A DNA stretch of 64,000 bases from Microcella putealis (GTDB taxonomy: Bacteria; Actinomycetota; Actinomycetes; Actinomycetales; Microbacteriaceae): NCBI RefSeq assembly GCF_004216575.1, contig NZ_SGWW01000006.1, positions 1 to 64,000 on the forward strand, given 5' to 3'. The notes below the pieces were generated by a model that made no database searches, was not told the DNA's origin, and was given only the letters and a program-made list of their open reading frames with translations. The number at the start of each line of letters is the position of its first letter. The stretch's first letter is position 1. This document shows, in pieces, positions 5,825-18,401 of the stretch. Made by a program: the position numbers and the translations under genes.

Positions 5825-9265
<3,441 letters not shown>

Positions 9266-9272
9266 TAGAGGC

Positions 9273-14441: not shown

Positions 14442-14599
14442 GCCGAGCGTAGAGTCTGAGTTCTGCTCGCACTACCCCTCGTTCGGGTCGCGTCGGGCTT
14501 CCCGCGAGTTCGTCGGCCGTTCCCAACGGGCATTTCGGCGTCCGGCGCGCCGAGGTGAAATCGGGAGCACGCATCCGGACATGGCGCAGTGTGGGAACC

Positions 14600-15169
14600 G
14601 TGACCGACACCGCGCGCGAGCACCGCATGCGCGAGCTGGTCGCGCTGGTCGGCGAGCCGGTGCGCCGCTACCTGCACCGCCGCACCGACGCGGCGACCGC
14701 CGACGACGTGTTCGGGGACGTGCTGCTCGTGTGCTGGCGACGGCTCGACGACGTTCCGGCCGAGCCGGAAAACGCCGTGCCGTGGGCGTTCGTCGTGGCG
14801 CGGCAGTGTCTGCAGAACGCGCAGCGCGCCGAGCGTCGACGCGGGCGGCTCGTCGGCCGCATTATCGCGATCGACCCGCCCCCGGCCGCTGCTGCCCCGC
14901 TCGGCGCGGAGGACCCCGACGACGACCCCCGCGCGGCCGCCGTCACCACAGCGCTGACCAGACTGCGGGCCGACGACGCCGAGGTGCTACGCCTCTGGGC
15001 GTGGGAAGAACTCGAGAGCCCGCAGATCGCCGTCGTGCTCGACATCTCGGCAAACGCCGCCGCCATTCGCCTGCACCGCGCGAAGGCGCGCCTGAAGGCC
15101 GAGCTCGAGAAATCTGCACCGCCACCCGGACATGTACGGCACGAGGAAGGGAGAACAACGAATGACTGA
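14600..15169 (+). CDS. ECF-type RNA polymerase sigma factor
   Basis: A 189-aa sigma-70 family protein. Region 2 is in ELVALVGEPVRRYLHRRTDAATADDVFGDVLLVCWRRLDDVP; region 4 is in LRADDAEVLRLWAWEELESPQIAVVLDISANAAAIRLHRAKARLKAEL, a clear helix-turn-helix for -35 binding. The GTG at 14600 is preferred; the frame is open to 14555. The stop overlaps the start of the next gene, whose product has a single membrane helix, so the pair is likely a sigma factor and a membrane regulator translated together. Target promoters cannot be told from this window. Confidence 0.85.
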   Translation: MTDTAREHRMRELVALVGEPVRRYLHRRTDAATADDVFGDVLLVCWRRLDDVPAEPENAVPWAFVVARQCLQNAQRAERRRGRLVGRIIAIDPPPAAAAPLGAEDPDDDPRAAAVTTALTRLRADDAEVLRLWAWEELESPQIAVVLDISANAAAIRLHRAKARLKAELEKSAPPPGHVRHEEGRTTND

Positions 15170-16280: not shown

Positions 16281-16390
16281 GGCTTCTCCTGTCGACTGGG
16301 CCCGCATGGCCTGCGGGCGGTCACTCATCGACGCCGGCTCCGGCTGCGAAGTGCGGTGTCTGCCGTTTTCTTGCGCCCGCGTGCGGGCAC

Positions 16391-16421
16391 AAAAAAAGCA
16401 CTGCCGTTAGACGACAGTGCT
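16391..16421 (-). terminator. Intrinsic terminator/attenuator before the HNH gene
   Basis: On the minus strand AGCACTGTCG pairs with CGGCAGTGCT (one G-U pair) around a TCTAA loop and is followed at once by seven T residues. This is a textbook rho-independent terminator. It lies 110 bases upstream of the HNH start and overlaps the last codons and stop of the leader ORF at 16407-16523, whose TAA falls in the hairpin loop. Confidence 0.9.
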
Positions 16422-16523
16422 GGTGTGCGCGCGAGCCTGACAGGGCAGGGCCGCGCTGACGCCGCTGACTATGCGAAAGATCGCGCGCGCATCCACGGTT
16501 TGGATGTCGCGTTGCCCTCGCAT
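16407..16523 (-). CDS. 38-codon leader ORF ending in the attenuator hairpin
   Basis: A short ORF read on the minus strand with a strong GAGGAG site 6 bases before its ATG. The product starts MRGQRDIQTVDARAIFRIVS and ends in ARAHTSTVV; it is not recognised. The stop codon TAA lies in the loop of the terminator at 16391-16421, so a ribosome finishing the ORF would cover the 5' arm of the hairpin. This geometry is that of a translation-coupled attenuator controlling the downstream HNH gene. It could instead be a small functional protein whose own terminator happens to touch its stop. Confidence 0.6.
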   Translation of the reverse strand: MRGQRDIQTVDARAIFRIVSGVSAALPCQARAHTSTVV

Positions 16524-16587
16524 GGTCGCTCCTCATCCGGTGCCGTACGGCGCCGATGAGCCTCAGGCTAACCCACGAAGATGAACG

Positions 16588-17711: not shown

Positions 17712-18401
17712 TCAGTCTGAAACGTAGATGTGCTGCGCGACCTCGGGCGGCAGCTCAATCGCCTCGGCGCGGCCCGTCACCTCGACCGAGATGTACCCGC
17801 CGTCACCGGGTCGGATGATCGCCTCGGCCCCCGGCATCACGCCCGCCTCGTGCAGCTGGTGCAGCACGTCGGGGTCGAACTGCACGGGCTCGGCCAGGCG
17901 CCGAATACTGCAGTGCCGCGTGCCGGCCGCCAGCGCGTGCGGCAGGGGAAGGACTCCGTCGAGGAACGGCTCTGCCTCGGGCAAGCCAAATTCTTCGAGC
18001 CCCGGAATCGGGTTGCCGTATGGCGACTCACTCGGGTTGTCGAGCATCGCGATGATGCGCCGCTCGACCTGCTCACTCATGACGTGCTCCCAGCGGCAGG
18101 CTTCGTCGTGCACGAGCGACCACTCGAGGCCGATGATGTCGTGCAGCAGACGCTCGGCGAGGCGGTGCTTGCGCATCACGGCTGTCGCCTTAGTGCGACC
18201 CTCAACGGTGAGCGCGAGGTGGCGGTCACCTTCGACGCTCACGAGCCCGTCGCGTTCCATACGGGCAACGGTCTGCGAGACGGTGGGGCCCGAGTGCCCA
18301 ATGCGTTCAGAGATACGCGCTCGCATGGGGACAATGCCCTCTTCTTCGAGGTCGAGGATCGTGCGCAGGTACATCTCCGTCGTGTCGACGAGATCGGTCA
18401 T
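17712..18401 (-). CDS. DtxR/IdeR-family metal-dependent transcriptional regulator
   Basis: Iron-responsive repressor of 229 aa. The N-terminal winged helix (TTEMYLRTILDLEEEGIVPMRARISERI, GPTVSQTVARMERDGLV) binds DNA; the dimerisation and metal domain holds KHRLAERLLHDI and VHDEACRWEHV, which keep the His, Cys, Glu and His of the primary and ancillary DtxR sites. The Cys in place of the MntR Glu favours an iron rather than manganese regulator. A C-terminal FeoA/SH3-like domain follows (GAEAIIRPGDGGYISVEV). Divergent from serC with 72 bases between. Likely controls the haem-uptake genes seen at 32282-34182, but no clear operator was found there. Confidence 0.9.
   Translation of the reverse strand: MTDLVDTTEMYLRTILDLEEEGIVPMRARISERIGHSGPTVSQTVARMERDGLVSVEGDRHLALTVEGRTKATAVMRKHRLAERLLHDIIGLEWSLVHDEACRWEHVMSEQVERRIIAMLDNPSESPYGNPIPGLEEFGLPEAEPFLDGVLPLPHALAAGTRHCSIRRLAEPVQFDPDVLHQLHEAGVMPGAEAIIRPGDGGYISVEVTGRAEAIELPPEVAQHIYVSD

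Follow-up and report, generated by a model that had tools for sequence, protein, structure and literature searches.

A conserved leader with a short upstream ORF, an intrinsic terminator and two hairpins of common loop precedes a PLMP-HNH gene in Microbacteriaceae

The leader of an HNH gene of Microbacteriaceae combines a short upstream ORF (uORF) that is kept open in its own frame, an intrinsic terminator whose hairpin is tied to the stop codon of this ORF, and two covarying hairpins, P1 and P2, that have a common loop. The element is linked to this one gene, which encodes a protein of PLMP-HNH architecture. Taken as a whole, the leader suggests an undescribed gene-specific RNA switch. Our preferred reading, plausible though short of probable, is a gene-specific feedback leader made of a translation-coupled terminator and two operator hairpins, for which the PLMP-HNH protein would be the most likely ligand. 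The literature that we searched, a collection outside of which most subscription papers fall, contains no description of this leader, nor of the function of this HNH family.

We analyzed a window of 64,000 nucleotides of Microcella putealis (contig NZ_SGWW01000006.1, positions 1 to 64,000), in which the locus lies on the minus strand (Table 1). A sequence-only reading of this DNA had noted a 38-codon ORF with a GAGGAG site, a TAA at a hairpin, and seven T, all of which are present on the minus strand as described. It had overlooked the two hairpins with NNCCR loops and the PLMP domain, features that suggest that the input is a binding protein. The -10-like element is also discernible in the alignment of Microcella, and the pattern TTA..(.)T occurs 75 to 18 nt 5' of the uORF ATG in 75/96 of the leaders presented below, a raw count without shuffled control. 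An in-frame ATG at 16328 is placed 5' of hairpin P2 and is not the start of the HNH gene that is conserved in the genus. Rfam families have four gathering matches in the window, all outside the leader; a TPP riboswitch (9163-9270, minus strand) scores above gathering. The leaders of ten loci gave no match at gathering either, ctRNA_p42d reaching 22.1 bits over the terminator of L103 where 50 are needed. A gene for a DtxR-type iron-dependent repressor is found near the locus (17712-18401, minus strand).

Table 1. Features of the leader and of its neighborhood in the window.
Feature	Position	Strand	Basis or remark
-10-like element TAGCCT (TANNNT)	16565-16570	-	about 42 nt 5' of the uORF start; putative promoter
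uORF Shine-Dalgarno GAGGAG	16529-16534	-	sequence; SD-like site before the ATG in the alignment of leaders
Leader uORF, 38 aa, MRGQRDIQTVDARAIFRIVSGVSAALPCQARAHTSTVV, stop TAA	16407-16523	-	ATG 16523-16521, TAA 16409-16407
Hairpin P1, CATCCA-AACCG-TGGATG	16490-16506	-	uORF codons 6-12; covariation
uORF codon 18, ATA, rare Ile codon	16470-16472	-	codon counts across leaders
Intrinsic terminator hairpin AGCACTGTCGT-CTA-ACGGCAGTGCT	16397-16421	-	11 bp, uORF stop at the tip
T tract, 7 T	16391-16397	-	sequence
Hairpin P2, GCCCGCA-GGCCA-TGCGGGC	16300-16318	-	directly 5' of the HNH Shine-Dalgarno; covariation
HNH-gene Shine-Dalgarno AGGAG	16286-16290	-	sequence
PLMP-HNH gene, 167 aa	15777-16280	-	GTG start 16280-16278, conserved genus-wide with AGGAG 16290-16286; Pfam HNH 1.5e-12; residues 1-68 resemble PLMP
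NlpC/P60 gene	16624-17619	-	upstream neighbor of the HNH gene; Pfam 3.3e-24
Sigma-70-like gene	14555-15169	+	convergent with the HNH gene

Members of the HNH family occur widely across Actinomycetota, with a match at E<=1e-20 in 103/149 genomes of the phylum. At E<=0.001, 80 of 99 relatives contain a homologue, and the match is strong in 53 of the 60 Microbacteriaceae genomes. The gene start was located at 148 loci, eight of which were set aside by hand (L018, L069, L126, L131, L137, L145, L146, and L147). An iterated ungapped matrix applied to the upstream DNA of the other 140 loci produced 96 distinct segments of 72 nt scoring at least 7. Outside these 96 are duplicates between collections and low scorers; 13 loci of the family are under the cut of the matrix (L027, L060, L070, L073, L086, L089, L090, L107, L114, L119, L129, L138, and L143). 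The 96 segments align without gaps over 72 columns and carry a start codon, a Shine-Dalgarno site, and the motif ATC-CAA-ACC-GTG-GAT-GCG-CGC. From their alignment we built the model R1, which covers the uORF start and P1.

The matches of R1 follow the HNH gene. At E<=0.01, the model matches 45 of the 99 relatives, all of them Microbacteriaceae, and 44 of these 45 matches share a contig with the HNH gene and are just 5' of it (in genome G015 the two are on different contigs). There is no match at E<=0.1 in the seven genomes of the family without a strong HNH match, and the model is unmatched in 8 of the 53 family genomes possessing the gene. Searching 396 genomes of the order gave 30 matches at E<=0.01, all in Microbacteriaceae and 27 of them new, with four family genomes listed without match. 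All 30 precede the HNH gene and have a terminator hairpin in between; P2 with an NNCCR loop is present in 24 and the stop codon is at or in the hairpin in 18 (P1 is partly built into the model, the HNH gene, the terminator, and P2 are not). The check proposed in the sequence-only reading, which concerned the ORF and the hairpin before homologous HNH genes in Microbacteriaceae, finds both conserved, in the R1 matches, the 96 leaders, and 30/30 order-level genomes.

The frame of the uORF is open from the ATG to 8 nt 5' of the terminator hairpin in 96/96 leaders, as compared with 46 and 65 for the other frames; past codon 20 the contrast is slight (96 versus 84 and 92). In this frame, 81/96 leaders have a stop codon that starts within the hairpin or in the 8 nt 5' of it, versus 21 and 14 in the others. 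When the leaders are grouped into 36 clusters at 75% identity, 26 have such a stop in the uORF frame, versus 6 and 7, and control windows give 0.21-0.42 per frame. The position of the stop varies between leaders: it is at the 5' base of the hairpin in 44, inside the hairpin in 35, and 7-8 nt before it in 2, while in 15 leaders the ORF runs through the hairpin and ends beyond. The placement of the stop in the loop, as first proposed, therefore describes Microcella and some genera but not the 44 and 15 leaders just mentioned. The proposed attenuator geometry is retained in so far as frame and stop are tied to the hairpin, and is not universal. In 12/30 of the order-level leaders (L259-L288), many of them of genus g254, the uORF continues through the terminator; several extend to the HNH start, which would couple the uORF directly to HNH translation.

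The distance between the ATG and the hairpin is 94-104 nt in 80/96 leaders and is not confined to multiples of three, which implies that spacing and stop were both kept while the frame was re-set. The peptide itself seems under modest constraint. In 21 sequences of Microcella, pN/pS is 0.40 in the uORF frame, and the two shifted frames give 2.28 and 0.57. We discarded the peptide as a conserved product, since 0.40 is little below the 0.57 of a shifted frame and the C-terminal part is variable. Codon 18 encodes Ile in 67/96 leaders and is ATA in 67/67 of these, a codon that accounts for 9/654 Ile codons across the ORFs of the window, where ATC is usual. A role of the rare ATA as a general sensor was also rejected, because it is absent from the 27 new order-level genomes, the sole ATA in that set of leaders being the one of the window. 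A ribosome pausing at this ATA would just clear P1.

In the window, the terminator stem has 11 pairs, including one G.U, and a loop of three; the first two bases of the TAA end the loop and its third base begins the 3' arm. The 10-bp hairpin with the stop in its loop, as originally described, is thus slightly longer, with the TAA nearly in the loop. Judged from this single sequence the terminator is weak evidence: the 9-kb stretch examined contains 6 sites that resemble terminators, versus 3.2 (sd 2.0) in shuffles. The leader fold has a z of -4.34 relative to shuffles, with 0/200 as good. It is the comparison with other genomes that raises the terminator above chance. An intrinsic terminator lies between the leader ORF and the HNH gene in 96/96 leaders, with a stem of at least 9 bp in 96/96 and at least 4 T within the next 8 nt in 92/96 (7 bp and 3 T were prerequisites of the search), and the core GCRYYGYC is present in the 5' arm in 82/96. 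Two Leifsonia loci (L089 and L107) retain the terminator alone, 37-64 nt 5' of the HNH gene, and P1 and P2 were not found there. The 96 leaders were also searched for an antiterminator, i.e., an upstream segment pairing with the 3' arm. The mean z was -0.37, with 14/96 below -1.5 and none beyond chance. We rejected this mechanism, as such pairing is on average no better than with shuffled letters.

P1 has a 6-bp stem and a 5-nt loop and spans 14-30 nt past the uORF start codon. It begins 17 nt downstream of that codon's A, a distance within or just past the footprint of an initiating ribosome. Over the 96 sequences, 93.4% of its cells are paired and 55 are changed on both sides, compared with 17.3 in shuffles, with ATC/GAT, GTC/GAC, and ACC/GGT as typical exchanges. 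Its covariation score is 0.394, versus 0.203 when shuffled (reached by 0/500 shuffles) and 0.020-0.077 for slid partners. The 3' end of P2 is 17-20 nt 5' of the HNH start codon in 77/86 leaders. Over 84 rows, P2 changes on both sides at 6/7 pairs and scores 0.439 versus 0.151 when shuffled; 97.8% of its cells are paired, partly by construction since these rows were preselected for a hairpin of at least 5 bp with an NNCCR loop. RNAalifold gives the same 7 pairs. An outer TCGAA/TTCGA stem seen by eye around P2 is outside the consensus fold and was dropped.

The two hairpins have the same kind of loop. It fits NNCCR in 91/96 leaders for P1 (CACCA in 37, AACCG in 28) and, taking the best hairpin, in 86/96 for P2 (AGCCG in 58, GGCCA in 18). 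An alternative count for P2, in which some genomes are entered twice, gives 112/132, and these two are the less biased counts for this hairpin. In loci L001-L110, hairpins with at least 6 bp and a loop of 5 nt fit NNCCR in 171/253 cases within the 290 nt before the gene versus 45/905 (5.0%) elsewhere. The window has 54 candidate start codons with a Shine-Dalgarno site, and just one of them, that of the HNH gene, has an NNCCR hairpin. Similarly, R2, the model of P2, has 42 matches at E<=1.5e-4 in the 99 relatives, all of which abut the HNH gene, and the first match elsewhere has an E of 9.4e-4.

Judging by the sequence comparisons, P2 is distributed more widely than the part formed by the uORF, P1, and the terminator, and P1 has the appearance of a duplicate of an older element. 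In a Streptomyces-like family, presumably Streptomycetaceae, the HNH gene is found in 61/61 genomes, and CGGCGCG-AGCCA-CGCGCCG precedes its Shine-Dalgarno in 30/30 loci, with compensated changes in L198 and L216. This family has two PLMP-HNH homologues in 60/61 genomes; the three second copies that we viewed (L162-L164) have no NNCCR hairpin. In family f6, presumably Micrococcaceae, an AGCCG hairpin of at least 6 bp is present in 8/30 loci, and P2 was found in 12/32. In 45 other loci, mostly of other families and classes, the one formal match to P2 is a terminator, and among the loci examined P2 was not found outside Actinomycetia.

The HNH domain of the 167-aa protein is recognized by Pfam (1.5e-12) and has a profile match to TbaIscB (1.4e-15). 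Sequence profiles did not detect PLMP in this protein. Modeled alone, residues 1-68 have a mean pLDDT of 85.3, and their nine best VIA rows are PLMP domains of IscB/IsrB (Z of 4.5-6.3, where values below 8 may reflect merely a common arrangement; rmsd of 2.4-3.8 over 49-55 residues). These are followed by N-terminal domains of IF3 (best Z 3.1), which the authors of the IsrB study name as a fold relative of PLMP in the accessible text of PMC9581776. The best Foldseek match of this segment has an E of 0.034. The coherence of the structural list argues strongly for a PLMP domain in residues 1-68. Pfam shows HNH families only and RuvC is absent, and on these models the protein is composed of PLMP and HNH, a relative of IscB without RuvC. 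The gene therefore belongs among nuclease genes with kinship to Cas9 ancestors. PLMP and HNH without RuvC is also the domain make-up of IshB, and it is the architecture that we find here. The accessible part of PMC12477157 mentions the name IshB and describes no leader regulation.

The following mechanism would account for these observations. Transcription would begin just 5' of the uORF, onto which ribosomes would load. A ribosome at the uORF stop, or crossing it, occupies the 5' arm, so that the simplest sign of the control is that translation means read-through: a ribosome finishing the uORF at, in, or beyond the terminator would cover this arm and allow transcription into the HNH gene, while a uORF free of ribosomes would let the terminator form. 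P1 and P2, each with an NNCCR pentaloop, would be duplicates of a single operator. Binding of a protein to P1 would halt translation of the uORF and lead to termination, and binding to P2 would prevent the HNH gene from being translated. Because the element is linked to that one gene, its product, the PLMP-HNH protein, would be the most likely binder, which would close a feedback loop. A precedent is IsrB, whose PLMP touches the omega-RNA hairpin carrying the Shine-Dalgarno of its own gene (PMC9581776), and another is the recognition of terminal hairpins by the PLMP of IscB (PMC9640706). Some results speak against this reading. The geometry of the stop is not universal in the sequences (the uORF runs past the terminator in 15/96 and 12/30), they reveal no conserved antiterminator (mean z -0.37), most HNH homologues outside Microbacteriaceae appear to be without P2, and R1 has no match in 8/53 family genomes with the gene. 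The PLMP contacts of IscB with its terminal hairpins are mainly sequence-independent, unlike those of a loop-specific operator.

A possible, though doubtful, alternative is a translation-stress attenuator without a dedicated binder, in which occupancy of the uORF under antibiotics, starvation, or rare-codon stalling would set read-through, termination would follow ribosome supply, and P1 and P2 would be structural helpers. The frame and stop geometry, the fixed spacing of 94-104 nt in 80/96 leaders, and the ATA at all 67 Ile codons of position 18 are in its favor, and so is whiB7/wblC of actinobacteria, which uses a uORF and an intrinsic terminator (PMC11550727). As far as the accessible text of PMC11550727 and PMC13236596 goes, whiB7/wblC resembles our leader in that a short uORF and then a Rho-independent terminator precede the regulated gene, and there translation of the uORF favors the terminator by way of a competing anti-terminator. 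In our leader, by contrast, the uORF ends on the terminator and we found no conserved anti-terminator, which predicts the opposite sign; two operator-like hairpins are present and the target is a nuclease gene. The ilvB-II uORF of Corynebacterium and the trp-type leader peptides are likewise cases of transcription attenuation by a leader peptide, in what PMC10272879 and PMC11550727 make accessible, but our leader has no conserved run of regulatory amino-acid codons and its target is not biosynthetic. The stress attenuator leaves unexplained why P1 and P2 have an identical NNCCR pentaloop, and this hairpin occurs without the uORF in the Streptomyces-like family. The ATA is missing from the 27 new genomes, and no antiterminator like that of whiB7 was found. 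We consider it extremely improbable that the arrangement is incidental, the hairpin terminating the upstream NlpC/P60 gene and the uORF being a chance ORF. The weak single-sequence statistics of the terminator would fit, but a separate terminator-like hairpin at 16608-16586 belongs to the NlpC/P60 gene, and the frame, the stop, the spacing, and the hairpins show both conservation and linkage to the HNH gene.

Other alternatives concern the partner of the hairpins. Twin hairpins with alike loops near the ribosome-binding site are known from the thrS operator and from mini-ykkC/guanidine-II, from which our leader differs by its NNCCR pentaloop, by the intrinsic terminator that the hairpins flank, and by the location of one of them within the uORF. 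The loop, read as N-NCC-R, resembles glycine anticodons followed by a purine, and thrS is a precedent for tRNA-like loops. Hence, P1 and P2 could be bound by another RNA-binding protein or RNA, such as a reader of tRNA-Gly-like anticodon loops, with the HNH gene as a target. This is very unlikely: U33 of the tRNA anticodon loop is not kept, and R1 and R2 are strong at the HNH gene only, so that a general factor would act on one target alone. It is also quite unlikely that the PLMP-HNH protein assembles with the leader into a ribonucleoprotein, the leader RNA being an omega-RNA-like partner or substrate and not merely a switch. The PLMP fold is close to that of IscB/IsrB and P2 is placed like the terminal hairpin of omega RNA, but the protein has no RuvC, and HEARO (RF02033) has no gathering match in the window or in its genome (G000) and is unlisted in a permissive scan of ten loci; 7/198 genomes of the phylum match. 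In the accessible text of PMC9581776, the PLMP of IsrB touches a terminal omega-RNA hairpin that contains the Shine-Dalgarno of the gene itself, as P2 here abuts that of the HNH gene, and according to the accessible text of PMC9640706 the PLMP of IscB recognizes the terminal hairpins of omega RNA by contacts that are mainly sequence-unspecific. Unlike these systems, the present locus lacks RuvC and HEARO RNA, has short hairpins instead of a scaffold of 200-400 nt, and includes a uORF and a terminator. No NNCCR match stood out in the terminal hairpins before the IscB/IsrB starts of 6/8 HEARO loci, where starts are uncertain.

The feedback leader allows a further conjecture, which we regard as rather unlikely. 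A stand-alone PLMP-HNH protein, kin to the putative HNH donors of IscB, would autoregulate through NNCCR hairpins of its own mRNA, one at the Shine-Dalgarno and a copy in the uORF that gates the terminator, and the terminal hairpin of omega RNA at the Shine-Dalgarno of IscB/IsrB would descend from such an operator or parallel it. If true, RNA-guided nucleases would originate in mRNA autoregulation. In any event, the conserved leader supplies the HNH family with a testable input. If PLMP-HNH binds the hairpins of its own mRNA, the meeting of PLMP and omega RNA at the Shine-Dalgarno would gain a simple ancestral explanation, and leader-peptide attenuation would gain a form in which an RNA-binding protein shuts off the leader peptide.
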